From contig NC_092579.1 of the NCBI RefSeq assembly GCF_037975245.1, forward strand, positions 1,307,501 through 1,371,500: a DNA stretch of 64,000 bases. Direction: 5' to 3'. The position numbers and the translations under genes are program-made. This DNA comes from Apostichopus japonicus (Eukaryota > Echinodermata > Holothuroidea > Aspidochirotida > Stichopodidae). The notes under the pieces are model-generated. The model worked only from the letters and a program-made list of their open reading frames with translations. It made no database searches and had not been told where the DNA came from. Shown in pieces: positions 533 to 63,500 of the stretch (position 1 is its first letter; every line of letters starts with the position of its first letter).

Positions 533-3500
533 CTGAAAGAGAGAAAATACACAAATAGACAAAAAAAAAAAGTATTGCAAACACATATTTAAAATAGAAC
601 AATTTTCAGTGTTTCATAAAGAAATCATATGTTTGGCCAACCGCTATTCCTCTTCTGTTTTCTAAGATATGAACTAAGCCCCCCCCCCCAAAAAAAAAAA
701 AAAAAAAAAAAAAAAGACAATGGTCCACGTCGTAGCTTCAATTGTTTTAAATCTAATATCCTATCTACTTTCCGTAGGACTAAGTGTAGGGAACTTGTAC
801 AACATGATGCTTTTATCTATTTGTTTTGTCTAATAAAATATATGTCAGGGCCTAAATAGTATGTCATTGCTTGTCGTAAGGCCTTGCGTTATGTATAAGT
901 TTGTGCTGACGGTCAGAAGTTCGGCGAATATTTAATTTATGCTTGAGCGATCAAAAATGTTCTTTGGCGAGCCCTCTAGTCACACAGTCTTAACTATTGA
1001 TACCGTTAAAACAACTACGTGATGCTTATCGGTAGGACGATTTGTGAAGAAAAGCACACTGCTGTTTGTGAGGATCATCAGTTGCTTGTGCTTCATCTTT
1101 TGGAACTAAACAATGTTCCATCTAGAATGGAAATAATTAAAAGTGTCCTTCACATATTTAGATCAAACTCAGAACGACACACTATAGTGAAAAGGAACGG
1201 ATACCAGACAATGAGCTTCACACAACTGTGACGGTCATTCTGCACTTGGGTTAAAATACTCTTTTTTACACTCTCAATTACTCACCAAAAGTTAGTGACG
1301 GGAGTACATAATTTAAGTTTTGGTACCAAATACGAAGGAGTTCCATAAAGTCAGAGAAAGAGAGAGAGTAAGCTAGGACCCGTAGTTGATTTGGTAAGGA
1401 CTGTCCTTGGTGTGTGATTTACTACTTATCTAAAATCTAACTGTGCAACTTTAGTGACGGGCCTTTTCGTCCCTGTTCTCCTTTGAAAGCATTTTTTCAT
1501 ATCTTATCCCTGCCCATAGCCTTGTGTTGGGTATGAGATGTTGCACTCTATCGACCATGTTTTGCTATCTTTTTTTTTCTCACAAACATTGCTACCTACC
1601 CCACACCCACCGAGGTTCTGTACTGACACTCGATGGACTGCAACAATAATATAAGGTGGACCTACAACTTTTGACTAGTGGGGGTCAAAAAGTAATGAGT
1701 GTGTGCGTGTGTGGGTGTGTGTGTTTGCGTGTGTGTACGTGTGTAAACAAGAAATAATTGTCACGAACTCCTGCTAGACCGTAGGCTGTTGACTTCAAAC
1801 TATATATGGATGTACAAAACCAAAAGTTACACGATGTTCAAAGTAGGTGAGATGGCAAATTTGTGCGATGAAGGGTTTACAGCGTCAGGTTGCATAAAGC
1901 AGGATAGATTTGCTGAAGGTTTAAAGAATACCAAGGTTTGAAAATATAAAAAAAACATATCTATATACGAAGGCAGACAGTAACTCTCCAAAGTTAAAAT
2001 GAACCCGCTCCCCCATCCAGAAAGTAATAAAAACTGATTTCATTACAAAATTTGGAAAATAACAAAAAAGGCTCATTCAACATTTCATAACTACTGAATT
2101 ACTTAATTTACTTTTAAGAAGGAATTACATACCTGTATTTCCAGAGTAGCCATCGATATCCGTCAGCCTGTACAAATTGTCCTCATTCGCAATCCTGAAG
2201 AGTTCATACTCGGCGTAGTAATTAAGACCATCTAATGAAGATATCATATCGACACGAAGATTGTAATCTCGCTGATTGGTCAATAAATGTAACTTGTCAT
2301 TCCCAAGCCAATGTTCATGGTCCACGTTTCCAAAACCTTCTTTGTAATCAGTCCAATTAAGATAAAAGTCAACTGATCCGTCGAATCGACGCTGAAATAC
2401 CTTAAAAATGGAAAGAAGAGGAAAACAAAAACCAATAAGCATTATGGGATTTAAATTTTAACATTTCGACTCAACTATAGTGACAAGTTCAGATTAATAA
2501 CTTTCTTGCAAATTTGGTTTGATTTTACAGAGCTGGCAAATTACATCAATGGTCGATTTTTATGTGTTTTTTATGTCTTTTTTTAAAATTTTGAATTATT
2601 TTAAAAGTAAGAAGGCCTGACGTTTCGATCCTAGCAGGATCTTCTTCCGAGGCTGAAGGAGGCACATTTTACACATTCTCTTACACAGTCTCTTTATTGG
2701 ATAAGCAGTTTGCTTACAGTGTTGCTTCAGTTTGAATTCTTTTAATCATTTCGATTGAGGTTAAATCAATAGAACCTTCGAAATAAACGCGGAATTAAAT
2801 TAAGAATACAATATTCTGTATTTTCCTCATTAGCAACAGTCTGTCAGTAAAACGTTTCATACCGTCCAGCCGCCACCCGAGGTGTCCATATCACAGTAAA
2901 CTTCAAATGAACCGCTTGTCCAGTTGGTCGGTGTGATGATGTAAGTACCATTTTCGGTGAATCCTGCATTACGGTAGTCATCGCAATCGAGAGCAAGTGT
3001 GCAAGTTAATCCATCGCCATAGTAACCATCATAGCAACTACATATGTTGGTGCCATTGTCTGGTTGACATGATGCATAGTTGCTGCAACGATATTCGTGA
3101 TCACATGTCAAGTTTCCCAGAGTGCAGTTACATCTTTGTGTGCAGTCGTTGTTGACAGAGAATTTGCCTGGCTGAAAAGGGAAAGAAAACAGTAATTTCC
3201 TTTTGGTGATATATTAAAGAAGCGTTCCTCATAAAGTGAGTTCATAATTATTGGACGCAACCGTTAGCGTCTTGAGACCGTCAATAACAAGGTCACAAAG
3301 GCTCTACATAAATCTCTTGGCTATTTTTTATATGCCAGTGTTGTTCGACGACGGTTTCGTCTTCCTATATATTAATCTTGTCACCAAACAAAGAATAAAT
3401 GCAATCATTTTTTTTTTAGCATTTTACAAGTTCTAAGGAGACCATAAAATACGTGTGCTTTGTTTGATAGTACACGTACCCTTTTGGCAATGGGCCTACG

Positions 3501-5206
3501 AATAATCCGTGGTGAACATGATTTGTTTCAAATGTGCTTCGTGATTAGTTCATGTTGATTCCTGAATATATCAGTCTCCTTTTACTTTGGAGAACCGAAG
3601 ATACAGCTTCAAGACGCAAAGAAAAATTCTTATGCTCTTTGAACAGGCTTTTACGAAGAAACAACTAAGTACTTGGTTATTTATTAAAAAATAGTATACA
3701 ACCTTTTGTGTATCAAAACTATTTGTCTTAAAAGAGTTATTTGGAAAATCAGTTGTATATATGTTGCGACCGTTACTACATATGTTCTCTTAAACATCTT
3801 CTTTTTGTTTCTACTTTTGAATAAGTCCTTTGGTAACTGCAACATTTTACTATGTTCCCGGCTATGCTACTGAATGGTCACTTCTCGGTATACACATTTT
3901 GCATGATTGGGTTCCCACACAAATGATAGACTTATGATACATGGTCTTTTCTTAACTATTGTAATAAATTTGGCTTACTTGGAGGAATCCAACATCTTGA
4001 ATGTAGCATTCACACTCCTCGATTGGGACACAGTCCTCCCCGTCCATCAAGAAGTTATCTGGCGGGCAAAAGCAAGTTTCAGGTTCCTCACAATTACCAT
4101 GGCAACCGAAAGGGTCTGAACAAGTTCCATGACAGCTACAGTTTCCAAACACCATGTTCATTGGACACTGAATTTGCGTAGAAAGAGCGATTTCCTGAGA
4201 TGGTGCTGAAATGTATAGATTTGAGGGGAAATAGATGGACGAGATTTATAAGTTAATGGTCAGCTTTATAGAAAAGTTGTGTTTCTTGACATACCGGGGA
4301 CATCTGGGTACGTCATTCTTACTATGATTGGCATATGCTAATACTTTTCTGCTCTGAAATGTGATGGCTATCTCCGATTGCTATCATGCCTTTAAAGGGA
4401 GTAAAGACTCGCGCACAAAGAAACGTCTGATGCCGGTAATCTGATCTAGTTTCGAATGAGGTGTAACAGAAGTGTTAGACACCACCATTGATCCCAGAAA
4501 ATACACACACAGCATGCTACTGTCGGTAATTAGACACTAGTGTATACAGTCAATAAATGCAGCTTCGGTCAATTCCCACAACACAGTGTACATAGCAGCG
4601 AGGGGCATCTCAGCAGGGAGTTGTTATGGAACTGCCTGATCTCAGGTCCAGATAAAAGATAACAAGGTACAACGTTTCACTGCTCTCTGCATTTTGTAGC
4701 GACAAGAAGAAAAGTTCACTTGCAAGCAACGGAAAGTTAATCTTTTTTTTACCGGAGGGCGGCACGTGGTTTGGGGCGAGTCTTCAATGCCTTTAAGGAC
4801 GTTTTCTGTCACATTTTTAGCGAAGACCTAGGTCGAATGTATCCACTGATATATTGTTCCTAGAAGGCATACAGACTGGAGGAGGAGGAGGAGGGGTGGG
4901 GGGGGGGGTTAAGGCTAATAATAGTTGCTTTCTCCAATACGTAAACCAACGCAATAATCTAAACATATCTATAAACATTATAAACATCCAACTCCTTGAA
5001 ATGTACCTCTGGGCAAAATTTGCAAGAAATTGGGATGATCTTTATAACTTTACTTTTTTTATTAAAGAAACAACGCTATTGAGGCCGGACAATATTTATT
5101 CGGTCGACCAATACCGACATTATGAAACCCTCATCTCAATCTACATTTTATGAAGCCGATTGTTGTGAAAAAATGAATTAATATAGTGGCTTCTCTTTTC
5201 TGCAAG

Positions 5207-5283
<77 letters not shown>

Positions 5284-8200
5284 TTTACTCATTCGTTCAT
5301 TAATTTCGAACTCACTCAAATCTGATATACACGGTTCCAGTCTACTATCAAATGTTTTATGCCATCATCTGAATCGCCTTTCAATTTTGTAATATTCACT
5401 TCATTGAACATATATTGCATACCAGAATTGTCTATACTTTATTACCGTGCAAAATAAAAATCATTTACACCGAAGAGAACAATGGCATATTTTTATGCCC
5501 TTGCGTAAAGTTGAATATTGATAATGCATACTGAGTCTCAAGTGAAATGATGACCGAATTTCGTTCCAAGGTTTATCGACTTGGAGACGATAAGATGTTT
5601 ACTTGGATGTCAAACAGAATGGAAGTTTGCCAGCCATAAAGTAAGTTCCTCATTTCGTGAAAATGTTTCCTACTTCTCCGTATACTTACTTGTCTCAATG
5701 GTTTCTTCCGCCGCATAGTTTCCGAAAGAACAGTTTTCTGCCATCTTGCAAGAAGATACTTCTTCAAAAGTGCATAAGTCTAGAATGAGAGATATTATGT
5801 CAAAAGCCAGAGGAGCCTCAGGCGCGTATCCAAGGGGGGGGGGGCGAAGGCGGAAGCCGCACCCCACTCCCCTTGAGCATCTTTTTTTATGTTTTTATGA
5901 TATCGTTAGTAATATCAAATGAGAAAATGCCAAGACGCAACTTACAAGGCCTGTGAAGTGCCATTTCCAGCGATCTGGGAGGCATTTACAGCCAAAATTT
6001 TATTGTACGCTTCGCGCCAACTCATAGTGGCGCTACGCTTAGATAGTTTGCAATGCCGTATCTACGTCTCTCATAGTTTGCCTACAGTTTCCAGGCGCGT
6101 ATCCAGGGGGGCGTTGGGGGTGCGCCCCCCGGGTAAGAAAAAGAGGAGAGAAAAAAAGGAGAAGAAAAAAGGAAAAAAGAGGGGGAAAAAGAGGAGGAAG
6201 GAGAGGAAGGAAGGGAAAAGAAAAGAAGGAAAGAGAAAAAGGAAAAAAAGGGAGTGTTAGTGACTGATCACATTTGTCCTAATAAGCAAGTTCATGTAAA
6301 CTTCTGAACATGAAACTTAAATCACATGAACGTATTCATATTGAAATCAATGAGTCTAGAGTAAATTTAACTCTATATTATACTTCCTGATAACAAGGTT
6401 ATTTACATAGTTGATTTTAGAAAAGCCGTTATGGTGTACATGGGCGGCGATCCGTACTTCCGAGTGGGGGGGATATGACCTTGTTGACTATCTAAGCGTA
6501 GCGCCACCATGAGTTGGCGCGAAGCGTACATGAAAATTTTGGGACTTACAAACCCTCTAGATGGCCGGAAACGGCACTTCCCGAGGTTTCCAAGCGGCAT
6601 ATACCAAACTTTAAAATAGGGATATCATGTCCGAAATATCTCATATTCAGGATCCAAAATACTTTTTTTTTTAATTTCGGGTGTTATTTTGGGAAAACTG
6701 CCCCTGTCAATCTTGTTTCAGGCGCTATGTTAGAATGTTCGAGAGCTCTTTTATATTATTCGATGAAGAAAATGGCCTCATGCAGGCTATTATAGGCCTA
6801 TATACATGCAATACACAATTACACATAGTTACATTCCTAGGTACCGATTGCTAGGGCATCCAGGTGAAACGTGTATTAAGCATTACCCTGGTAACATGAG
6901 ATTCTCAGCTGTTCGAGGGAACATGTACGTGTGTAGGCCTACTATAGGGCCTATATGAATACTATGAGGGTGCATATATGTACTATATCAATACCGTGGG
7001 CGCAATAATACATTTTGTTGTTATAGGGCCAATGAAGCCCACAGTCAAATTTTCTTGCTTTATAAAGACGGTTTATTTGAAAAGATCGCACTGCGTTTAT
7101 GGTAGGCGAGAAATGAAGCTAATAAAGAGCCGTACATTCACGATGATGCATAAATGTAGGCATGAAAATATTCTTATCCCTGGCATTTGGTGGGGGGGGG
7201 GGGGATATGGTGTATTACATCCCCTCCACCCATTTTCATGGGGGGATATATCCCCCCTTCCTCCCCAGGATCGCCGCCCATGATGGTGTAACCTTGTTAG
7301 GCTAAGGGACATGCAAATGTCTCACGGCTCATATGCATGTCAACGCAAATGGAAGACAACCTGTAACCCCTGGCAACATTGTCATATGAATAGAGTGTAT
7401 AAAAGTTAACTAATTGTAATTCCAAAGTGCAGCAATACATTCGATTACAAAATACAATATTATGTTATCTACTCTATCTTAGTGCTTTTCTTAGGTTTTA
7501 TAGGTTTCTGACGGCTTGAATATTGTAATATATTGGGTCTGAAAATAAGAGGTCCTACACAGAAGATAGCGGATTAGCAAAACGAGGTTTATTTAACGAT
7601 CAACTGTTGGGGGTGCATAGCAATACATATGCTCCTATTCAAGTTTGTTACAAATATGACTATCATCATTCTGTGTTCGTCGAAAATGTGATGATTTAGT
7701 TTTCTGTACCTTGTAGAACGGCAGTCACTTTAGAAATCAATTGTTGTTTATTCATGTAAATCCTTGGCTTTCGAGTGAATTTGTGGGAGAATAATTAATT
7801 GTGTAAATTCTATTGTCTTTAATCAGGAAGCCATGCCAACTAGTTTATTTCTTGAGAAGATTTGGTTTCACATATAAAGGACATTATTACATTTGCATTA
7901 TATAATAGCTTCCGTTACGTCCATTTTCTTTCGCGATGTCAAAGGCATAATGGATATCTTTATCTGCAGATGTGTTAGAACATTAAAATTGTTCATATCT
8001 ATCTTGCCATTTTGCACGTTCCTTTTCTGTATACACTTATATATACGTAAAAAACAACTATTAATTGACTATAAGGATAAAAGATGACACGTTCAACATT
8101 CCGCCATTAACTAAAATAGTCCCACATAGTTTACGGAAACTTTAGACGTTATATACGATTTTTGATAAATCTTTTATCTGCGAACATCGAACAAATGGAA

Positions 8201-16324: not shown

Positions 16325-16627
16325 AGACTAGTGGAACACTAGTAGTTGTTACTCAGAGTTTCACGCGTTGTGCGATCATCAGACTATATATATATATTTA
16401 TATAATTGAATTCGTAGTGAGTTGGAAAATCCAGAACAGTGAAAAAACTTCCAGCCTCCACCGGGATTTGAACCCAGGCCTCTGGCTTTATATGCTGATG
16501 CCCTAACCACTAGGCTATGGACACTGATTGTATGTCCAGAGATTCAAAACCGGTAAGGAAGGTCCCATTCCACTGTAGGCGTTTGTCACCTGTATCGAAC
16601 AATACTAGTTCTGTACATATATACTAG

Positions 16628-19600: not shown

Positions 19601-22600
19601 GTCACCTTAATCTAGAATGACAACCTGGATAATTCCTTAACGTGTAACATAAATATCGAGAATTCTGATTGAAAGCACTCAAATTATAGATGGGGTTAAG
19701 AGACTCGCAATGCCAAACAGGGAAACAACTAACATAATGTGCATTATAATCATCTTTGTGAGCTATGGTTTTGTCTTTATTACAAATTCTAAGCGTTCAA
19801 TATAAATACCTTCTCTCAATTAGTTGTGCATGTTATTTGAACAGGCTCAAGGAATCACTGAGAACAAAATTGTGGTCAGTGTAATGACTGGGCTCCTCTA
19901 GTAGTACAATGACTCTTCTGGCTAACTGCCCCCTCCTCTACCCCTGCCCTACCACCCAGTGGCGGAGCATCCATATAGTCAGGGGGGAGGGGCGAATGCC
20001 GTTTTTTTGTGACCACCAACATATACATACCCCCATCATACTTCTCACGGTGTTCATCCACTTCCTTGTTGACCAAGTTAAAGAAATCTTTAAAAATAGC
20101 TTCCAGTTTTCTCTGACCAGGGGTAGGAACATATTTGAAGATTGGTATGTAGTCAGCTAGAAGACCACTTCCAGCAATATCATTCCCTTCTTTACTTAGG
20201 TACATCAAGCGAGTAAGTTCCGGATCATCAAATTCGTACCTAGTAAATGAGGGAGATTACAGAAAGTTTATTGCAATAAATGGAAGGCAATGCTAAAAGT
20301 CAAGAATTAATTTACTCGTAACAAACTTTGTTTACCCACAAAATACACAAACAACATGCTGTGCACAAAAAAAAAAACAATAGGTAGACATCCTTAAGAT
20401 AGGTATTTTGTGTAACCTTTTGCAATCCTAGACCAGATTAATAATTCCCCTTTAGTCTATTGATGATAAACTTGAAAGAAGTATGTGTACATCATACTTA
20501 TTGTGGGAACCATGTCAGTAATACTACCAGAATGTACAATGCACAATTTGACCATTGTTGAACTCAAACGACCATTGAACTCCACCCACAACATTAGGCT
20601 TCTTGTACTCAATATGGTACAATTACATACCAAATATGCAATCTGCCCAAAGTTCCCCTTCTTGCAAAATCATGTTTACAAGGTTTTCACAATTTGACTC
20701 TTGTTGACCCCAAATGACCATTGACCTTCACCAAAAACTATAGGCTTCATGTACTCAATGTGGTACTTTTACCCAATAAATATGAGGTCTGCCCAAGCTT
20801 CTCTTCTTGAGATATCCTGTTTACAAAGTTTTCAAAGTTTTGACCCCTGGTGACCCCAAATGACCTTTTAACTCCACCAAAAACTATAGGCTATTTGCAC
20901 TCAATGTCATTCATATACATTTTAGATATGAGATCTTCCCAAGCTTACCTCCTTGAGATATCATGTTTACAAGGTTTTTAAAATTTGACCCCTGGTAACC
21001 CCAAATGACCTTTGACCTCCACAAAAAACAATATGCTTCTTGTACTCAAGTTGGGGGTCACAAACACACTGATGCCATCATCAATGTAAAGGTTAAGACT
21101 TTCATCGAAACCGAAATCTGAGGTTATGAGATGATAATTAAACAAGGTCAAAGTTCATTTGAGACTCTATATTCATGAATGTAGTTTATATTGCCACTGC
21201 GCAATACTTGATATGTTATTTGGCAAATTATTTTACTTATACATATAAAAGCATTAGTAACTTACTTATTTGCACGGACATTTCCAGGTATCACTTAAAA
21301 TATGTCACAGTAAACATTCACACAGTTGCTTACTTTGAAGAAATGATACATAACTAAAAGCACAAGTTAAGAACACATTGGGTGAGGGGGGGGGGGGTAT
21401 TAGCATGAGGTGTAGAAGAGAAAATAGAGTCTTTGTATGCAACCTAATGAAAACTTTACCGACAGAAGCACTACATTGGTGGCAACTGCTTCCTTCTCTA
21501 CAGAGAAACATTTCTACATTAGATACAACTGCAATTTCTTAACTTACTGTTTGCCAAAGCATAAACTCGCCAAGATATTATATATGGATGATGCAAGAAC
21601 TGTTCGTGTGTCAAATGGTTCTGACCCTTTGGAGTCCAAGTTTGCTGTAAGGGCAGGAATGATGGAATAAACCAGCTTTTCAAATCTCTTGTTGTCACCA
21701 GTAGCCAACTTCCTGAAACATAGAAAAGGTTATTGAAAGTGAACATTTCATTCAATATATTAAATATAAAGTAACTAAAAATAAATTCTGTTCTGTACTA
21801 TCAGGTAATAATTGCAAGCTTAAACAATCTTCAAACATAGAATAGTAATTGAATACCTTCCTTGGTAAATATGTATGTTTGTGATGATTTCATCATCCAC
21901 TAATACAACTTATAATACCAGGAAGCTGGAAAACAGCTCCCTCCTTAACACAGGTATAGAGGTAACAGTATGTTCAACACCTGGCACATGCAAACAAGTA
22001 CTGTACATCTCGGAATCCTCAACATTAGTACATGAATACCCCGTGGGGGCATACAACAGACTCCGAATTTGATGGAATGTACGAATGTGATGAGGATGAC
22101 AATTTTCACACCAGTCCAACTTTGTACAGATAGGTACAGTGCATGTAGGCATATCTCAACACTGCACTGATAGGGATATTCCAGTGGCAAACAATTGAAA
22201 CCTCATCTCAATATCTTACTCCTAACTAGAGATAGAGCGATTGAATCGAACCTATTTTGACAGGCTTAACTTTCAAATACTCTGGCAGGAAGTTGTTGGC
22301 TCACAGTAGGGTAAATTTGGAATGTTTGATTTCCTGTCAAACCTCTCTGTTCTTTAAAAAATTCCATCAAAATGTACATGTTTTGTACAAATATTCGTTT
22401 CTGCTGTGGATAAATGTTTGACAAATTGTAAAGAAAAAAAAACAAAGACATTTTCGACTGAGGTGCCCTGATGACATCATCCATTCTGCTGTTGCCAGAT
22501 GCAAAATATCACAAAAATTTGACAAATTTAGCGATACAAAATGCTACAAGGTTGTGGTTTTCATCTGATAGGTTCTGTTAATTCCGGCAAATTTGCTAAG

Positions 22601-31096: not shown

Positions 31097-34000
31097 GTTT
31101 GTAGATTTTAAGTCTTTTGAATGTTTATTAGATAGGAACCCCTTTGGAATGGTTGTTGGTCAGTGAACATACTTGTTTGTAATGAACAGTTAGACTTGAA
31201 TTGAAACCGATGTTCTAACTTTCTCTTTCCTATCGTGTTTTCAGGTGGACTTTTTTCCACTAAATTTTGCATTAGCATTAAAACTGTATGATTTCTGTGC
31301 ATATGCATATCATCTGTGTGATTATGAAGGTCAAAAATTGGGGTTTTTTGGGGGGATGTTGTGTGGGGGGGGGGTGGTTTAGATACCAACTGAGGACCCC
31401 ATAAAAGTAACTAAATGTTCACAATTGCAGTATTATTTACTTTTGGTATTACACACATTTGTTTATCCTTTGTCTATTTGATTTATTCACTTTCCTTCTA
31501 CTGCCCCACTTTTGTCTGAGTAGCTTTTGTTGTTGACATTTTCATTCCTACTAGTCAAAGCTGATTTATTGATTTTATAGTATGCCTTATCATCCAACAG
31601 TCTAAAGCAGGAGTTCCCTAAATGGGGTGCATAAACCCCCAGGTGGTGCGCAAGCCCATCCCAGGGGGTTCGTGAGACGTTTCTGAAAGCCTAAACTAGA
31701 GTACTTTTTGTTGAACTGAAATCTGATATGGATAATACCTGTGCCTATCGACAAACTCTTTTCCCGTTCCATACGCATATGTTGCCATAATAGTATCGTA
31801 CCGTGCATGTGATAAAATAATTGAATTATGAAACAGATACAGGCCGCATGACTTTGGTGAAGTTGGTGTACGCATGACAGTACGTCTTGAAGATAAAGAG
31901 CTGATCTGATCTTGAAGTTTCCAAATAAATATTTGTTCATCTCTTGTTTTATTGTTGTCACAATATTACACTATGGAACTTGATCTTTTATGAAGCAGTC
32001 TTATGCCTATTATAGTATAATAATGCATAAGATCGTGTCTCGAAAGTTGGGGGTTCATAGACAACTCTGACATCCACAGGGGGTTCGTGGGGGGATAAAG
32101 TTAGGGAAACCCTGGTCTAAAGGTACTATTCAATCATGATCAATTTCATCTTCTTTCTAAAACCTGTATTAACAATTTTTCCCTTGGGTAAAAAAATTTG
32201 TTGTAATGAAATTGAAAAAATAAGTTAAGTTCATTATGTTTAAGGCTCACAGGAACTCTTGTTTACTTTTCCCACCAGCAGGGTTCATAGAGACTGCCAA
32301 TGAATTTCTCCTGAAATATGGACTTGACCGAGTCTCTGACCTGGCAGAAGTTACGGCTTCAGTATTTGTGACCGTCTATGAACTTATTCTGGGCGACAGA
32401 TTGGAAGGTAAAAGTTCCAGACACTCACAGCAATCTCCAACTCTAGAGTTTTACAATATTAATCACTTGCTAAAAAATGCCAGTGGTGCATAAAATAATC
32501 TACGAGTTTGCTAACATGGAATTCCCACTCGAATTGCCTTGAATTAATACAATCACAAGATTCCTTTCGCAGAAAAATGCAGATTCCTTTTTTTCCCCAT
32601 CTGGCAAGCAGATCCACTAACATTTAACCAGTAAACAGCCTGAATTTCGAGCCTTGATCTCTTTTCCAAACGGTAACATGGCATTGCTCTATTGTTGTTG
32701 AAGTGTCAGCCTGAAGATCAATTTGAACTGAGAGCTGTCGCTATTTAATATTGGAATCCTTCAACTTATTGCTTGGAAACATGTTGCAGCTTGTCTCCTG
32801 TTCACTCATTAAGCAATTGGTTGTCAGTGAACTACCTCTGTATTCAGTTTCATAACCAAAAACTCCTAGTATGCTAGAGCAAACCATAAGAGGTTCGAAG
32901 CTTAACTACATACATCACTGACATGACCCAAATCCAATTTGACAAAGTACTAAATTGTTTGGAAGAATTTACTTCCAGTGTTTTCACCACCGGAAAAGTA
33001 CTTAAATAGTCTTGTTATTTTAGCATTCCAAAATCTGAGACCATTGCAGATAAAGACTTTTGACAAAGATGGAATATCAAATTATCATTTATTATATTAC
33101 ATTACTCATGCTTCTGTGGTGTTTCAGAGTTTGTTCAATCAGTGCTTGTCAAGAACCAAAAAATGCTTCAAGGGTGTTATTTACAGATTCACAGAACAGT
33201 ACTTCTTACACGCAAAATGATTGGTCGTGTTGAAAGGATTTCATTCTATTTTCAACAGGGAAAGCTCATAGCAAATGACTATCTTGATACAATATCCTGT
33301 ATTCTTACATATTACATATTAGACACTTGTATAGCACTGCTACATCAAGATTGTCTTAGTCTTGGTCATTGGTTACTTGTCACACCTACATACCCAAGGG
33401 TTTGGCAATTCAATCAATCTCTCCTGGGGCACCACAGTGCACCCCAACCATGTATTTCCTGGTGGACTTCCCATAAGGTGCAGCCACAAATCGGCGCACT
33501 ATTTTTACAAGTTACCTCGCCAGTCCTCATTTATACACCTGGGTGAAGAGAGGCAATGGAGATAAAGCGCCTTGCCCAAGGACACAACGCAATGAGTCTG
33601 GCCAGGGCTCGAACCTGTAATCCTTAGATCACAAGTCCACTGCCTTAACCACTTGACCACAACGCCCTCTCATTTAATCTATGTTGCATTCTTACTTCAG
33701 GAGTCATCAAAGATGTGGTAACCAGAGAGGATGAGATCAACAACATCCAGCGTTTGATTGACAGTCTTGCCAATGACTTTCTGCACTGTGACCTGTCACA
33801 CATCACTGGGGTGGCGGTGGCAGACGGTCGTGTGACCAGCATTCAATACCTGTTGGAGATTTTCCTTGCACTTGAAGCATTCTTAATGGAACAGATCAGT
33901 TTAGACTCCTCTAGCCATGCTGATGGTACGTCTGTACTTGGTATAGAAAGACACATTATGGTGGAAGATTTGAAATTTACTGCAATTAGTAAACGCCAGT

Positions 34001-37000
34001 CTGTTTAATTATATGAATAATGTAACATCATTTATTTAGTATATATAGTAAATTATAATCTTCCCTTAGAGGGAAATTTTATTAAGTTGAAATAATTTGT
34101 TATTGTTAAGATCATTGACATGTGATTATTTATTATCATGTTGTTTGGTAGTTTTACTTGAAAATGTTTGTTATTTACTTATATACATATGTAATATTTT
34201 ACTTAAATTATTCCATTACTATTTACTTCAATAGGTAGTATAAGTTCAGTTTATGTTATGATATAAATAGTCATTATTGATGGGAGGTCAAAGCTTCCTA
34301 GGCCGCGTTGATTTATCTAGATAATACAAATAAAACATAAAATGCTTGGAAAAAGTTCAGCTTATCCCGTTGGCCAATCATTGTGTTTCCTCTCAATTAC
34401 TGTTACATGATGTTAATATTAGTAAGATTACTGTCGAGATGTCACATATCCTACCGCCAAAATTATTTTTTCTATCAGGGAGACATGTATGAGAGAGGAA
34501 ACTTGGCAAGCATGTATAATGAAATTATATATTTGACTATAATTGATATGTATTAAAACATAGTCAGCCAATTCCCCTTACGTAAGTTACTTATTTTGGA
34601 TGATAATTGTCCCCAGCCTGGTTTTATTAGCATGGAGGCAGACTTTTGTAGTCAATCTTACATTTCAACAACCTATATATTTGAAATATATCTTTCTCGA
34701 TTGCAATTAACTAAACTTAGATACAGTTTGAGCATTTAACACTGTTAAAATTGACAGAGAGGAATCTCTTAAGAATAAGAGATACTTATACATTCTGCTA
34801 GGAGAGACTCACCATGTTAGAGGCATCGAATCCTGCAAACAACATAAACAATGTATGAAAGGTATTTCTGGTTTCTTGACAGCACCACATGAAGAGGATT
34901 TAGATGTGGTTACCATGGGAACAGCACATGCTATATCAGAGGTGTTGAGAGAAGAAGGCATCAGTTCACCTCCTACCAAAGATGACACAGAAACCAGTAT
35001 TAGGTAACTAAGTATTTTTATATGTTAGTAGTAACACACCAAGATGGGGAAGCTATTTGATTTATACTGTACTTACTTATACTGTACCATGTCATGCTTC
35101 AAAGCACTTGTTGTGACAGTTTGAACAGAATGAATATATCCTGTTCATATCAGATAATATGGTTAGGAACTATCCATACTGTCAGTAAGAATGCTTTTAA
35201 GCATGATTTATTTGTGGGACGAAATTATTGAGTGGTATGAGCAGGGGTAGTTAATTTTCCCAGTTTGATGAAGTAAAATTGACAACAACATCTATCTGCT
35301 TGCATATTCATGACCTTACCATTATTAACTTGTCTTAATTATATTGTTGCACAAGAGGTGTTTTGCAGATCTCATGGAAAGCTGTTACTCTCCAAAACCG
35401 ATGTGAAAACTTTATCATAAATGTCATAAATCATATAATATCATAACTAATGGCTACCTCATAATACACAAGCTCGAGAGTTAAGTTTGGTATGTACAAA
35501 TCTCGGTAGAGAATTTTTATTTTCTAGCTTTCAAGTGAATAGCAGAACTACCAATACCTGAGTATGCCTTGTTCTGGTATTGTTTGCATGGTGCACACTG
35601 CACTGCATTAATATACAGTAATTAGTGGGTGTGATGAAGCAGTGCATCAGTTGGAAAAAATGCATATATGGGTATTTTGTTTTGTACAGCAGTCAACTGG
35701 TTGAAATACACATGATGTTTTATATACATTCATTAACAATGATATTAAAAAAACACCAAAACGATGAAGCTTCTAAGTCTAGGACTGATTCCATATATTT
35801 TCATATATGATTCCATATGTGATTCCATGTATGGTTTTGACAATTTATCTTTCACTGACTTTTTCATGTTTGCTATTAGTAGTTGTACCAGAGGTGATTG
35901 TCTGAAACTCCAAAAGTCACAAAGTAGGATTAATATTCGACATAACTTTTTTTCTAATAGGGTTGTGAAGGAGTGGAACGGTTTGCCTGAGAAAGTTGTA
36001 CTTGCTAGTAGTGTGAATGGGTTTAAGAATGCTTTGGACAAGTTCTTTAAGCATTGTAATCGGGTCTGAGTGTATGTGTCTTCAGGTTTTTTTTTCTCTT
36101 CTATAGGGTCCTTGATGGGGACTTGAGTGTCCCTCCTGATCCTTTTTTTCTACTCAACTCAACATATGAAGTGAAGATTTGTTTGACTATATAGTGAAAC
36201 AGTCAATGTGAGGGAACTGATAATACTCTGTAACATGTAATATGTAATGAACTGTGTAGGCCTGCCACTAGATTAGTGTTCAACCGATTAACCTAATCGG
36301 AATCGGTACGAATATTGCATAATCGGAACATAATCGGAATCGGTAAAAATTACGTGGAATACCAGTTATTTCATACCGATTATTCAAAAACATATGGAAG
36401 GTGAAAATATCATTATTCAAAAACATATGGAAATTGAAAATATCAACTGATGTATTAGGTTTGTTCTTTTACTACGAAATATTAAAATAAGACACCCTCT
36501 ATATACGTCTTTCACAGTGTATACTTTCATCAATTTACGCTGCCAGGGTCGCCGATTTAGCTTCCCTCGTGGTTAGTGACTTCAAATTTCTTGGCACAGT
36601 AGGCATAGCAGCAATACCAATTTCGCGAACTAACGAATGTGCTTGACAGGGTCGAAAATAAGCGGGAGCGATGTGCTAAAAAGCCCTCCTAAAGCACAAT
36701 TACGAGTGTGAAAAAGAAATATAAGAAAATCGCCCTCGTTATATCAGGTGTCTGTGTAAAATTAATTGTGACATGCGTTTGCTTTAGCTAGGAATTGCAG
36801 TTGCAGCGCGAATCGCGCAAACAGTTTCACATCTCGCATCAAATTTGAAGCAGTGCGGTAGGGTCGCGCACAATCCCCGGGAAGTTACCGTGGAAAATTA
36901 CGGCATGCACGAAGCAATTTCAGTACCAGCGAAAATAACCTAAAATCCTCACAAATCTCCGACCACATGGTAGCCTTACTTCACACTAAGTCAACTGCAT

Positions 37001-56600: not shown

Positions 56601-57795
56601 AGAGATTTAGCGTATTATAAAAGTGGATATCTTGAACACTCAAATAGCTGTGGAAACATTACAAGCTTCACCCAAATGTTTTTTTTGTCATGGAGTGTAA
56701 TCTATCAAGACTAAAATTCTGCTTAAAGACATCCATTAGCAGGCCATATCTACTTGAACAAGTTCAACATTTAGATAAATATGTGATTGTTTTACAACCG
56801 AATGCCAGAAACTGTTCTATCCCCCACCCCCCCTCCTCCCGCCCCAGCCATTTCAGAGTTTCATTGACTCTACATTTTGGTGTCCTTAGCTTATCAATGG
56901 AAAGTTACTCTGTAAGTAGGGAAGGTAATGACTAAACATAACGGGGTTGGTCCCGGAAGGAGGACAAAAATAAGCGAGACATTTCTTAGGACTAGTAGTC
57001 TAATTTTATTTATCATTTCCTAGTGAGTTTTCTGTTGTTCATTTTTCTTGATATATACATAAAAATCCAATTTTCTCTTATCCACTTCCTAGCATGCTTT
57101 GTGGGTTAATGGTATCAAATGTAATTTGGTTGCAATTCTTGGTATGAAAGGTACTATTATGGCTACTGGCTGGCCCCAATTAACCTAGAAATTATGAAAG
57201 TTTGGAAGTGTTACAAGTCTGTATCAATTGCATGTGTTCTGTGCTGGATTGCACAGTTATTTGCACCTAGCAGCATTTTGCTTCATTACAACTGAGTTTC
57301 TTGAAGATTTAACAGAATAGATAAAAGGATAAGTCTAAATGTTTGTTACTCTAGACTCACTCTCAGTAGAGAAAATTTAGGAGGCTGGGTTTGGTTTTAG
57401 TGTTTTTGCAAGGGCAGATGAACTTTGTGAGTTCTTAAGACAAAAATATCTGAGTAGTATGCTCTTTGCAAAATGAGACCTGGTTTGACCTTTTAGAACT
57501 GCCATAAGATGAACCTAAAATCCCTCTATCAGGAGAAGACTACCCCCCCCCCCCTTTAAGTTCCTATTTTGGCACTCTCTAACACTAAAATACTGGAAAG
57601 GTTGGAAGATGGCCCTCATCATTCTTTTGCCTTCAGTGCTTCTGATCCAGTGGTAGACTGCCCTCTGTAGAATAAGGTCACTTTACCACTATCATCTTTT
57701 TATTGTATTAATTACATATTTATAAAGTGACTTCATCTTAGTGAATTCAAGAACTTTTGTTTCATAGAGGGGCCAAAGCCAAAATTACCGTAATT

Positions 57796-60125
57796 GTGGT
57801 GGGACGGAATTTGATAGACCTTTTCAATAATACCGCTTTATATGTAGCATATATGAAGGAATCAGGATATCCACACAAACAGGTCAGTCACAGACTGCAA
57901 CCAGACACAAAAAAAACAGACACAAATTTGAAGATGTTGCCATGGTAACACAAATATATTGACGTGGTGGGACGGAATGATAAATCTCATGAAATCATGA
58001 ACATGTAACCTTTATGTAATTATTATCAAAAGTAGTACAATATCATAGTAATTATTAACACTGAAATGGAGGTGAACTATTCTTCTACCATTAGGGAAAC
58101 AATGGCAGAAATTATACTTCACGCATAGGAATTGTGTTAATTTTACCGAAAGAATGTCAATGTGGTGGGACGGAATGTGGTGGGACGGAATTTTTTTCCA
58201 ATGTAAAGGCTGTTGATTAGGTACGAAAACAATAAACAATTATGTTTTCTCTCACAAGAAGTTCATAAGCAACAATGAAATTTATGCTGTCCAGAGTGAA
58301 ATATTAAATATGCTCGATGATATCTTGGACTTATTCAGTCGGAAAGTTATTTCGAACATTTGTAATGGATGCTTTGTACGCTGCTCGATTATTTGCTTTC
58401 TGGTTGGCCCTTTGCCTTTTCTTCCTACTCCACTCCCATTCTGGAAATACCTCAGCAGTCAGCACCCCATTCTCTCCTTCTTTTTCCTTCCTATAACGTA
58501 TGTATCTGCTAGCAGACACATTTTGAGGCTCAGGATTTTCCATATTGATCTGCTTTGCAAAGAGAGATAAAAGGACATTCTTACCAGCCGGATGCATGAA
58601 AAGAGGACTGGGGGTGGGGGGTATAGCCACACACATTTCTAGCTTAATTGTTAAGAAGTTGGGGGACCAGGAAGCAATAGTGGTCTTCCCCCATATGCCA
58701 ACATGTGAATAGAAAGAAAGAATAAGTTGGCTTCACTATCCTGTGAATTGTGTATTACAAATGCAATATGACATGAGAGTTGGCCTCATAATGTGCAGTT
58801 ATGAACAGGCTGAATAATTGCTAGGCATAGACAGTATACACTTCCTGCACAATATATTTCAACTAGCCTATATTGTGTTTTGGTTCACTTTTTTTGCATC
58901 GTAGGCTACAAGTTTCAAAACCCAACTTAGTATGGTAGATAGCAACAGCTTAGGCAGCATACCATATCCTGTTAGGCAACAGCTTAGGCTAAAACATTAA
59001 TTTGCTAGGCTAGACAACTCCAGCAAAATATGTAATATTTCATCTAACAGGTTTGCTTCCTTGCACTAGTACTGTAAGCTACACATTTCTACCTCTCATT
59101 ATATTATAAGTTTTGTTTTAAACCTTTCCAATATAACATAGTCTGTTAGGCAACAGCTTAGGCTAAATCATAATTATAACTATCAAATTGTCTGAATTGC
59201 CTATAACCATGAACTGGAGGTAAATTAATATATTACTTTTGAGGAGCAAACTGAATTCTTACCTTAATTCTTGCAATCTAGCTCTTCTATCTTGTATGCT
59301 TCAGTATGTGAGTACCATAACAACTTGACTTTAAGGTCAATTTCTTGTGCACGTGGATCATTGTTCATCAGCAGATGATATCAATTCAAAAGCACATGTT
59401 CTACAATGGATAGTTTAGGAAAGCCAAAAGGGCCAAGAAAGAAATCTAGGGTGAACAACTAGGACTATTTCAATGGTGATGGGATTTATTTATGCATGAT
59501 AAAAAACCCATTCTCAATTTACCCAAAAATGTGTTGTTTTGACACATGAGGTTCAAAACTGATGTGATGTGTACAGTATGTATGGAATATCCAGATACAT
59601 AAAATTTTGAAGTATATATCATCAATTAATCACATTGTTATAAGGTAGGGTGTTCAAGGAGTCTGAATAAGTTTGTTATCTTAAGTGACAGAGGTAAATT
59701 TTGGACCAGACATGCTGTTTGAAAATGCCTTCCATTTAAAATTCCGTCCCACCACACCTTGTTTCCGTCCCACCACGAAAATGTTGGACTATCCCCCTGT
59801 CTATCCAGGATAAAATATTTATATTTTCTCCACTCAGAGGTGTCAGTTACATACATAGTTGATAGTTTGGAGTGTTTAAAAAAAATTATCATTTTTTTCC
59901 CCCTTGGAAATTAAAAAAATATTTTCAAAAATGTGGTGGGACGGAATTGAACACTTTCGTTTTATTTTTTTTTCATTCAAGAACTACTATTGATACATTT
60001 TATAGTGCATAAAGTATCCTCATTAAAGGCAATTTATACTGTCAAAAACAGAAAAGTTCAACTTTGTTCCCATATGTAATTACCTCATTTTTCTGAAATT
60101 CCGTTCTGAAATTCCGTCCCACCAC
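57796..60125. mobile_element. Block with eight GTGGTGGGACGGAAT motifs, suspected transposon
   Basis: Forward copies are at 57796-57810, 57964-57978, 58162-58176, 58177-58191 (back to back) and 59933-59947. Reverse copies are at 59741-59755, 59763-59776 (one base short) and 60111-60125. No other copies were seen in the window. The block lies in CEP95 intron 15. The minus frame 58331-58636 inside it is Lys/Arg-rich (RKKRQRANQKANNRAAYKAS) and may be a decayed protein fragment. Ends and target duplication were not identified, so the transposon reading is inference. Confidence 0.4.
58960..59175 (+). repeat. Duplicated segment GTTAGGCAACAGCTTAGGCTAAA
   Basis: TGTTAGGCAACAGCTTAGGC followed by TAAA occurs near 58970 and again near 59145. 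AGCAACAGCTTAGGCAGC near 58939 is a partial third copy. It lies inside the GTGGTGGGACGGAAT block. Confidence 0.6.
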
Positions 60126-60289
60126 ATCAGGAGTGTGCTACCTGCATTTTGGAATGACCGCATTCCATTGTTATGCGAGTTATCGTAATTTTTTGTTATG
60201 ATTACAGAACTTTGGTTAGTTGTTCTCATAACCATGGGTGAAATGAGCCTAAGTGGCAATGTTCAAATTCCAGGTAAAGTGATGACCAT

Positions 60290-60560
60290 TAATGGCTTTG
60301 GCCCAGAGGTCAAAAGTTATTCTGAGGTCACCACAGGTCAAAATCTGAAAACCTTGTTAACACAATAATTCCCCATGTAAAGCTTTGAAATGAACTTTGT
60401 ATGTGATGGAATAATTCACTTAAAAGAGTACAAGAGTTGTATTTGGTAGCTAGGTCAAATGTCATTTGTAGTCCTCAGAGTTCAAAGTCTACAAAATCTT
60501 GTAAGAAAGATAACTCCAAAAGTAAAGTTTTGGATGAACTTGGCATTAGTGTGTGGATTC
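60290..60560 (-). repeat. Copy of the ~146-bp repeat family, inverted
   Basis: GAGGTCACCACAGGTCAAAA and CTGAAAACCTTGT are the reverse complement of the unit in P450 intron 4 (20547-21050). Roughly two diverged units. Confidence 0.55.
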
Positions 60561-60569
60561 CACACTTTT

Positions 60570-63500
60570 ATGTAAAAGATTATTTTGATGGTTTTAATGT
60601 TGAAGAACCTTGCTGATCATGTGATTTAAGCTTTGTTCAAAATTTGATATCTTTCCTTCATTGTTACAATAAATATTGGCATATGGGATGTAGCAGTGAA
60701 TCACTGACAGTCTGGGTTTGGCATGAATTAAGCATTACTGATGTTAGGGTGATGACATTACTGTTACCTTAATATAATTGCAGCTCCAGCCTCGCAAGCT
60801 ACCCTATGTGAGAGCTTCATATGTTTAATTAGCCTCTGTAGGTGCACATTGTTGAGCCTCATACCCTTGCTAACTGTCCGTAAATGTTTCTTTTTTGGAG
60901 GGGTGGGGGGGGGGAAGGAAGTGAACTTTTGAGTCGTTATTTAAGCTATATCTTCTAACTACCTGAAATTGTGTGGCATTGATTTCTTAAATCCTTCATG
61001 TTCAAAAAAGGATTCTCTCTCAGAAAGTCAAATTCCTACTGTACAATTAGTCTTACCTCTCACATGGGTAAATAAAACAACAATTTCAGAACGACCTTTA
61101 CATACAGCACAGCCCATTAAATGTCTGAGTGATGATTTAAGTTGTCATCACAGTCCTGTTGTGTCTCATCAAAATGCCATTTAAAAAGGTAATTTTTGTA
61201 TCGTTTATTATTTAGACAATTTCCGATAACAAATCTGAACTTGAAGAACTTTACCTTTACTGTTCAGCTTCTTTTCTCTCTGTATTTCTCTGTGTCCCTA
61301 GAGAAATATTTCTGAGTGGCTTGTATCCTTTGATTAATTAAAAGAATCATTGTTTCAAGGTAGAGACGATGCTATGGTATTAGAACATCAAACGGAATGA
61401 TATTCTCCAGAGATTCTCGGTAATTTGTTTGTCTTTCAAACCATTTCTTGGTTAATGAATATTTCCCAGAATTCGCCAAAGGTACTTCTTGAAGAACACC
61501 GGCGTAATCTATCGGATTAGTTAAAATTAACTGGGTTAAATCCAGTTACATTATTCTGACATTTTGAGTTGTCTATTAGAACATCATATTAGGTTAACAG
61601 ATATTTTTGCATTTTGGCTCATGTTCAGATGGGATCAATACCCTTGTCTGTCAGAGTGAAGCAACTACATCTATAGAGATAATAATGGTTAATTCTGAAT
61701 TTTACACGATGGTGAAGCTTAAAATGAGAAATTAACTACAACTCTATGTAAACGGTATATTTCAATCAAGCAGAAATTGTCATTCCTGATAGGACAATAA
61801 ACTCTTTTAAAAATTATTGTATATATCTTTCAGATTCAACAATCATTTCTGTATCATACTTCTCCCGGAAGTTGAAATGCATATGTAGGTATGTGTATTA
61901 ACATAGGAACTAATCTAAATGCTGGCCCTAAGCTAGGGTTGGAATGTTGGCCAATGTCCATCCAGGGTAGAAAAGCTTAGAGATCAGATGAGATTAGAGA
62001 TCAGATTAGTCCTTGCCAAATATGAATCAAGATTAAGGATTTGATGTGGTTCTTGAAACTGAGTAAATCAAGGTTAATTAACATGATAAGATAGATACAT
62101 ATTAAGTGGGATTAATTTCAGAGTTCAGTCCTTGTCCAAATTTGAATTAAGACTATAGGGAATTGACCTGTATCAACTTTGTTTGTAACTTGGAAAAGTT
62201 TTCAGTAGGTTGGATTTAAGTACAGTAATTAAGGTTAACTTAATTATGGTGAAATTAATTCATATTTCCATCACCCATATCTTGTTTGTCAAGTTTTCTA
62301 AGATACTACAGTTGGAAAGAAATTAAGAGTAGTGTCTAACAAATCTGCTTGTGATAATATTAACAGTCCTACATTAATTCATTAATACATAGTTACTGTG
62401 TATATTTCCATCACCCATATCTTGTTTGTCAAGTTTTTATATTTTGCTTAGTCATTTCTGTTAGCCAATCCTTGAACTCACCATGTATGTCTCTACCTGG
62501 AAAAGCCATTCACCTGGAAGGTATTTAATGGTTTTAATTAGTTTGTTAATTATGGGTAACAAGCATCTGTCAAACAGTGGCAAGTTATCACAGATATGTC
62601 ATCAGAGAAAATTTGTGCAATAATGAATATTGAGTTGTCTTCTTCATAAATAAAATGAAACTTATTCGGAAAATATGTCAGTAGATGTAAATTGATACCA
62701 GAGGGCAAAAGAAACTAATTAAATATGCAAGTACTGCATTAAAGGTAAAGATTTACCCAAATTGTCAGTGGTAGTAGTAACTTGTTGATTAAACAGAAAG
62801 GTAGGTGCTGAGCAATTAAAATTTTATTAGAATTTACAACTCAAGTTGACTATTTGAGTTTGTGGTACTGTATATATTTAAGAAATATCAGTTTCAATTT
62901 TGTGTCATCTGTCACCATAACAAAGAAATTATTCTTTATCTTCCCTTGAATAACTGTCATGTATTGCATGTTAAATGTTTCTATGTTAATATCAGACTGT
63001 CTTGGTATGTATACATTAGAAAGATTGTTAAATATATGCCAAGCGTTAAAGGGGTATTCCATTGGTAGAAAACGAGACACAATCTTAAAGAGAAAAATAT
63101 TCCGCACTCCCCATCTCAATAAGTTGTCCGTTTAACTTGAGATATATGGTTTATTGACTGTAGGGTAGCTAATATTTGAATTATATAATTATTATTTGAA
63201 TTGGCTAATCCTTCCCTCCCTCCAGGAAGTGTATAGCAGTAAGCGGTACGTGATGTCTTCAAAGCTTGACTACTCTGTTAGAATCTTCTTCATCTTGATT
63301 CCCTGTGTTTTATTTAGCCATCAATCTTTAGAATTCCATCAAAAATACAACTTTGTTGTAGAAATATTCCTTTAACTTATTTGAAAAGATAAACAATTAC
63401 AGTTCAGTTTCCACGATGTCATTGTTCACTGTGCCTAGTTCATTTTACAAACTATCACCAGTTTTAAAATTTGTAAGATTAATATCTTCTTCATGACAGA

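Follow-up and report, generated by a model that had tools for sequence, protein, structure and literature searches.

In the maize elements Ac/Ds and En/Spm, transposase-binding words are repeated in both ends and in both orientations; their duplication lengths and tips are other than those reported below, and we know of no conserved lattice with a family-specific word in either of them. Other DNA transposons offer further points of comparison. Hermes carries short repeats with a 5′-AAGT core, 17 and 14 of which occur in its ends, and its target site is 8 bp long; the BED domain of its own transposase binds the left-end repeats, and the presence of several sites helps multimer assembly (PMC10368747). 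Sola2 elements have terminal inverted repeats (TIRs) of 12–13 bp and AT-rich 4-bp duplications, i.e., AWWT, ATAT, AAAT, and ATTT (PMC3627910). Ginger elements have mostly 4-bp duplications, TGTNR tips, and TIRs of ~40–270 bp (Ginger1) or 50–180 bp (Ginger2), with CCGG/CCGT as the targets of Ginger1 (PMC2836005). Repbase classes nonautonomous elements by the length of the duplication and the first 11 bases (PMC4455052).

Here, we describe a cluster of short words in the window, i.e., the whole stretch of 64,000 nt of Apostichopus japonicus DNA that was analyzed. The cluster belongs to family A, a nonautonomous cut-and-paste DNA transposon with 12-bp TIRs and 4-bp target site duplications (TSDs), for which we found four related families (B to E). 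Family A resembles Hermes and other hAT elements in that a short word is repeated in both ends, in mixed orientation and asymmetrically between the ends, but the word is 14–15 bp long and present in about eight copies, and the duplication is 4 bp long in comparison with 8 bp in Hermes (PMC10368747). A further difference from Hermes is that the sister families described here keep the positions and change the word. In how it works, Hermes is the best-described parallel (PMC10368747). Sola is matched in the 4-bp duplication and the short TIR (PMC3627910). The duplications described for Sola2 are AT-rich; those of family A are mixed, and those of the other four families are for the most part AT-rich as well. 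Ginger is like the present families in its 4-bp duplication but is excluded, since the tips here begin with GGGC, the TIRs measure 12–15 bp, and the targets of Ginger1 do not fit either (PMC2836005). The duplication of family A is 4 bp long and not the 8 bp of hAT elements, and TTAA, the target of piggyBac, was found in 0 of 14 family A duplications, which excludes both groups. Academ duplications of 3–4 bp occur elsewhere. The 4-bp duplication of family A weakly excludes Academ, for which a 3-bp duplication has been described (PMC5199201).

Word cluster and element boundaries

The initial annotation had described eight copies of a 15-nt word, five forward and three reverse, with one reverse copy lacking the last base, and had seen none outside the cluster. 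We found all eight again at the same positions (Table 1): seven are exact copies of GTGGTGGGACGGAAT, and the eighth (59762) is off only at its last base. At ≤3 mismatches, the sole further match in the 64 kb is located at 35211. The chance expectation for matches of this quality is 0.87, and the observed 9 were reached in 0 of 100 shuffles. In a whole-window scan for clustered 13-mers (≥4 copies in 3 kb, with simple words excluded and neighboring words merged), the cluster was the sole place occupied on both strands; the remaining places are single-strand and lie in or beside tandem arrays.

Elsewhere, the 15-mer was found in 20 stretches of viral contigs, with a single match in each, and in at least 118 stretches of prokaryote contigs, with one match apiece in the 80 stretches listed; plasmids yielded 5 records, at an E-value of 1. 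A literature text search for the letters of the motif found no occurrence. Among the matches listed for a shorter motif and the TIR words, none was a transposon paper by title, and those listed for the TIR words of the relatives were bacterial by title. Among the titles and starts of abstracts listed, no transposon paper with the letters of the motif or the tips was found, but the family may nevertheless have been described before.

Outside the cluster, a perfect inverted 12-mer, GGGCCAAAGCCA, was the single find, with AGAG on both of its outer sides. This 12-mer occurs twice in the 64 kb, at the two tips, and has no copy with one mismatch in the window. Among 19,857 random placements of the same geometry, an inverted 12-mer occurred in 574 and an inverted 12-mer together with a 4-bp duplication in 0. 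Inverted matches of 9, 10, or 11 bases with a duplication were likewise found in 0 of ~4,950 placements each, and those of 8 bases in 13 of 4,960. Homology to other family A copies ends at the predicted boundaries with overruns of ≤8 bases. A hAT-type left end (TAGAGGGGCC), considered by eye, was discarded, as it has no counterpart at the right end.

Table 1. Features of the word-bearing element, its insertion site, and its relatives (positions refer to the window unless a locus is named; site distances are measured from the tips)
Feature	Position	Strand	Evidence or remark
Nonautonomous DNA transposon, family A, 2,535 bp	57770..60304	+	TIR and TSD; homology ends of other copies
Left TIR GGGCCAAAGCCA, 12 bp	57770..57781	+	12/12 match to right end
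Right TIR	60293..60304	-	Inverted match of left 12-mer
TSD AGAG, left	57766..57769	.	Other copies have different 4-bp duplications
TSD AGAG, right	60305..60308	.	Pairs with left AGAG
Older dispersed repeat, likely insertion target	60306..60655	.	Right part aligns with array 20545–21049; left part apparently at ~57741–57769 (moderate support)
Subterminal site 1, GTGGTGGGACGGAAT	57796..57810	+	Identical in 13/13 copies
Subterminal site 2	57964..57978	+	Identical in 12/13 copies
Subterminal site 3	58162..58176	+	Identical in 13/13 copies
Subterminal site 4, abuts site 3	58177..58191	+	Identical in 12/13 copies
Subterminal site 5	59741..59755	-	Identical in 10/13 copies; 2 copies with a single substitution, 1 copy lacking the site through deletion
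Subterminal site 6, last base A not T	59762..59776	-	Variant shared by 12/13 copies; deleted in 1
Subterminal site 7	59933..59947	+	Identical in 11/13 copies
Subterminal site 8	60111..60125	-	Identical in 13/13 copies
Lys/Arg-rich open frame, apparently spurious	58331..58636	-	Stops/frameshifts in 11/13 copies
Family D element (674 aa), 3,820 bp	L194:1732-5551		Tips GGGCTATTCCAC/GGGCCATTCCAC, TSD AAAT
Family E element (737 aa), 4,617 bp	L195:1662-6278		Tips GGGCAATTCCGT/GGGCAGTTCCGT, TSD ATTT
Family A site distances	27, 195, 393, 408 and 180, 358, 529, 550		
Family B site distances	27, 194, 391, 405 and 181, 347, 517, 536		
Family C site distances	14, 192, 380, 395 and 360, 525, 542, 562		
Family D site distances	13, 193, 381, 403 and 362, 529, 543, 567		Ends exchanged relative to the other families
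Family E site distances	14, 183, 372, 393, 428 and 363, 519, 539, 552, 567		

Judging from its surroundings, the element probably lies within an older repeat, whose left part is moderately supported. Specifically, the array at 20545–21049 is an AGGTCA-rich 146-bp tandem repeat, of which the right flank from 60306 is a diverged dispersed copy, and a gapped local alignment of the joined flanks to the array runs on into the left flank. When the left flank was anchored at the junction and the duplicated bases were excluded, 66 of 18,647 random stretches scored as high in the sum over four array units and 293 of 18,647 with the best unit, as did 56 of 5,000 and 165 of 5,000 shuffles, respectively; with the duplicated bases included, the numbers were 1 (sum) and 12 (best unit) of 4,666. 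Searched by itself, the left flank was not significantly similar to the target repeat (its score was 31.5, in comparison with a mean of 26 and a maximum of 42.5 for shuffles), and the blastn match of the joined flanks stops at the junction, with none running across it.

The element also hosts a second repeat, unrelated to the word, at 58942–59163 (GCAACAGCTTAGGC three times, twice within a 39-bp repeat), which is present in other family A copies too, and a small tandem duplication at 60091–60117. Other features of the window include a tRNA-Tyr call with an odd anticodon, ATA, at 16452–16525 (−), which lies between AT repeats and may be a tRNA-like repeat, as well as open frames with Pfam matches to Fibrinogen_C with EGF/TILa at 2128–3213 (−), cytochrome P450 at 19879–20256 (−), and DUF5745 at 33649–34005 (+).

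Family A copies across the genome

The 14-base core of the word displayed 98 + 91 matches in the genome (671,581,487 bases, 35 contigs), in comparison with 0 + 3 for a control word. The 100 core matches listed fall into 15 groups and one single match, giving 16 loci in addition to the window. All 16 align with the window element, and homology ends at 57770 and/or 60304 wherever the end was included in the fetched stretch. Fifteen copies, the window included, could be scored at both ends, a count that excludes L169, which is truncated, and L178, whose left end lies beyond an insert and outside the fetched stretch. A perfect 4-bp TSD flanks 14 of these 15, in 12 different sequences (AGAG, TACA, TAGT, CATT, ATTC, AGCA, TGTT [three times], CCCT, TTAC, TACT, GTAA, and ACCT), and the remaining copy, L182, has no matching 4-bp duplication. 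The tip GGGCCAAAGCCA is found at both ends in 15 copies, with a single substitution at one end in L175 and likewise in L184.

The initial annotation had offered two readings of the cluster, namely, subterminal transposase-binding repeats or arrayed sites for a DNA-binding protein. The genome-wide motif search and the alignment of clusters revealed shared boundaries and 4-bp duplications at other loci, which defines a transposon. The first reading is thereby upheld as regards the transposon and the subterminal position of the words, with the binding of a transposase remaining putative, and the second, insofar as it dispenses with a mobile element, is refuted by the same boundaries and TSDs. An immobile, enhancer-type array of host regulator sites beside a gene is hardly conceivable for this reason. 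The clustering of identical sites where genes are present would be in keeping with such an array, but it is refuted by the exact boundaries and the 4-bp duplications, which recur at numerous loci unrelated to one another.

The 13 full-length copies in the alignment (L169, L178, L183, and L184 excluded) are 92.5–100% identical over ungapped columns. BLAST revealed two near-identical pairs, L173/L182 (99.76%) and L174/L179 (99.72%), and the flanks within each pair do not match. Pairs that are >99.7% identical at unrelated sites therefore represent separate, recent insertions. A search with the whole element, in which 40 of 52 candidates were scored, gave at least 43 matches; 20 of them, the window included, span positions 1–2535. 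The 230-bp derivative at L183 (C9:31588000–31592000; 1662–1891) retains the two tips and a single exact word, in addition to a GTAA duplication, and is a possible miniature form; if L183 moved as this short form, fewer than eight sites suffice. The view of L169/L185 as a copy with a new interior was rejected in favor of a truncated copy. A weak match (73%) to element positions 108–268 at C19:5780578–5780733 perhaps represents another related family.

Conservation of the word and the Lys/Arg-rich frame

Among the 13 copies, non-majority letters account for 7 of 1,532 positions in the eight words vs 704 of 30,965 elsewhere, i.e., the word is approximately fivefold more conserved. Random sets of eight 15-base windows were as conserved in 2 of 20,000 draws, and in 17 of 20,000 when drawn within the subterminal parts; removal of one copy per near-identical pair gave 1 of 20,000 overall and 13 of 20,000 subterminally. 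Family A copies were found via the word itself, and a copy without an exact word would be missed, a bias that should be small at 2% divergence.

A Lys/Arg-rich minus-strand frame inside the cluster had also been singled out by the initial annotation. It is indeed open in the window copy, but it is not gene-like and is broken in most of the full-length copies (Table 1). In L175, a frame of comparable length is open, but its middle part differs and it terminates one codon sooner. Changes in the frame by codon position number 27, 41, and 42, with the third position not favored. A translated search with the frame produced no Pfam match, and the only PDB hit had an E-value of 1.1; among the 24 listed open frames in and around the element, ten were searched against Pfam with no significant match (best E-value, 0.23). 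Judged from these comparisons, the frame does not look like a gene and appears to be no part of the mechanism.

Sister family B

Five loci that match only element positions 1–215, at 69%, constitute a second family, B, of ~2.9 kb, which has the same tips. Perfect 4-bp TSDs were found in 4 of the 5 copies (L193, L202, and L203 excluded from the count), the fifth, L189, having ATAT/ACAT. The positions of all eight sites are kept, and the word is GCGAGGGACGGAAT in 39 of 40 site copies. Between the A and B words, the 3′ half, GGGACGGAAT, is constant, with the exceptions of the last base of site 6 in A and one mutated site in L189, whereas the 5′ half is GTGGT in A and GCGA in B at every site, and the flanks differ. 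The more diverged B copies (L193 and L202) show scattered word changes. Genome-wide, the tip word GGGCCAAAGCCAAAA occurs 42 + 30 times, with 0 + 0 occurrences of a control.

L193 (C19:17924340–17931240) is a B copy with a ~5-kb insert near its position 315, plus a deletion. A 6.7-kb pair of TIR words on C19 resembled an autonomous element, but this reading was rejected, as the pair belongs to a B copy that has undergone a large insertion as well as a deletion. A 600-aa open frame, leucine-rich-repeat-like by eye, is located at L189:3894–5696 (+), next to the B copy near the start of C1.

The relation between A and B bears on the idea that the uniformity of the words is a functionless by-product of recombination or slippage, such as gene conversion among sites. 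In favor of such a by-product, the words at 58162 and 58177 abut as a perfect tandem, and the duplication at 60091–60117 is another small tandem. However, the sequence between sites is not homogenized, the word is conserved above background among copies of one family, and the same changed 5′ half appears at all eight B sites while the flanks differ, all of which makes a by-product highly improbable.

Transposase-like proteins and families C, D, and E

Family B copies carry decayed protein pieces on the strand opposite to the left-end words. A 70-aa piece displayed 39 genome matches, of which the best 20 (83–100% identity) include all five B copies; weaker matches fall within two long frames, one of 674 aa on C11 and one of 737 aa on C10. 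Over 624 columns, the identity between the two proteins is 29% (E-value, 3e-68), and the stretches QxDF, SDGxSSxFK, and HGKGxVDGxGG are present in both. Pfam gave no significant match for either protein, nor did a PDB search with the 674-aa protein, and the protein motif words were not found in the literature. B copies match the 674- and 737-aa proteins in order (L202, E-value of 6e-27; L203, 8e-16). No intact A/B-type transposase was found, the longest matching B pieces measuring 136 and 176 aa (L189, L190, L202, and L203), and the interior of the window copy has no transposase remnant (best E-value, 0.61). The link of family A to the transposase-like frames thus runs via sister family B and not via the window copy itself, the protein kinship being common to families B, C, D, and E. 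Given that it has acidic stretches and is located between inverted repeats, we read the 674-/737-aa protein as a putative RNase H-like transposase. The relatives encode a transposase-like protein of ~670–740 aa or derive from elements encoding one, and we infer the same for family A, which would be moved by a transposase supplied from a relative.

The 674- and 737-aa frames belong to families D and E, respectively (Table 1). The D word, GTGACTTACGTGAC, is present in eight copies, seven of them exact, and the E word, GTGACGGACGTACA, in ten, of which five are exact, four differ at one position, and the last differs at three. The tips of D and E were selected on two grounds, namely, agreement in the first three bases and a 4-bp duplication free of mismatches; with the words themselves set aside, they are the best pairs (11/12), with weaker pairs behind them. 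The GGGC start that both share was not a selection criterion.

We predicted that further relatives carry word clusters of their own, and four of six that were fetched have the word of one family, C. Clusters of GTTACTCACGTTACA were evident at once in L196, L200, and L201. The fourth, L199, is a decayed C copy ending near 4432, with unequal flanks, ATGT and ATAT. L198 has no word cluster, and L197 (C12:25383000–25390000) is a transposase-like fragment amid satellite DNA, where 36 copies of AATCACCTTAA masked the cluster test. Both tips and a duplication were found in one of the four C copies, L200 (tips GGGCAATTCCATGG/GGGCAATTCCATGA; duplication ATAT, inside an AT repeat), and L196 and L201 have one good tip each. 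The tip scan for C asked for GGG, and for C, D, and E alike, the tips and TSDs were themselves among the criteria of the scans that yielded them. A candidate "family F" (L199, right tip at 5336) was rejected, as L199 is a family C copy, and five families are therefore counted.

Shared site positions and private words

The distances of the sites from the tips (Table 1) exclude a B hit with three mismatches at 611, include an E hit with three mismatches at 14, and for C are those of L200 only. Agreement in position among A, C, D, and E was equaled by 0 of 5,000 random placements and 0 of 5,000 shuffles of gap order. In a cross-scan at ≤2 mismatches, families A, B, C, D, and E displayed 8, 8, 8, 8, and 9 sites of their own word, respectively, and 0 of the words of other families. 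Both the cross-scan and the position comparisons also took in a construct from L199, later assigned to family C. Between families, blastn (E-value, 0.01) matched only the first 215 bp of A and B and short coding stretches. The five families have five different words and one site lattice. The words resemble one another by eye (G-T/C-G/T-A … ACG) and may, because of this resemblance, share descent. All 17 long gaps between sites measure 156–198 bp, a spacing that, speculatively, would suit wrapping around nucleosomes.

The cluster, which makes up the subterminal portion of a nonautonomous transposon, is very probably to be explained as follows: the word, as the putative binding site of the transposase of its own family, serves as a family-specific key on a fixed lattice. 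That the word changed at all sites while the positions were kept is what argues for such a key. The 15-bp word would be bound by the own-family transposase, several units of which would load on ~4 sites per end, located at ~14–27, 190, 380, and 400 bp from one tip and at ~360, 525, 540, and 560 bp from the other; families A and B have one more site, near 180. The resulting multi-unit complex would pair the two tips, and the enzyme would cut at the GGGC tips and join them to a 4-bp staggered cut in the target. The pattern of sites suggests that the lattice may reflect the fixed geometry of the assembled complex.

The same sites could instead, in what remains a transposon, be those of a host DNA-binding protein such as a zinc-finger repressor or a nucleosome-positioning factor. 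A word of 14–15 bp is what a host multi-finger protein would recognize, and the 17 long gaps come near the nucleosome repeat. Against this, each family has its own word only, as would be expected if the factor diverged along with the element, and the lattice is measured from the element tips; we therefore regard host-protein sites as unlikely.

Implications

Tentatively, and with more doubt than conviction, we propose that the five families represent a hitherto undescribed group of animal DNA transposons, possibly ranking as a superfamily. Their fixed site lattice, with nucleosome-like gaps of 156–198 bp plus a close pair or triplet, would be kept across families whose ends have ceased to align, while the 14–15-bp word at all of the eight or so sites would be replaced as a set. 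If this is true, each family would own an orthogonal transposase key, and the families would form a natural series on change in DNA specificity. Many transposons have repeated end words, and the joint change in specificity of a transposase and its dispersed sites is hard to study. With five families that have the same positions and different words, the coevolution of the DNA-binding domain with its sites would become directly testable, and the private words could yield integration tools that do not interfere with one another.
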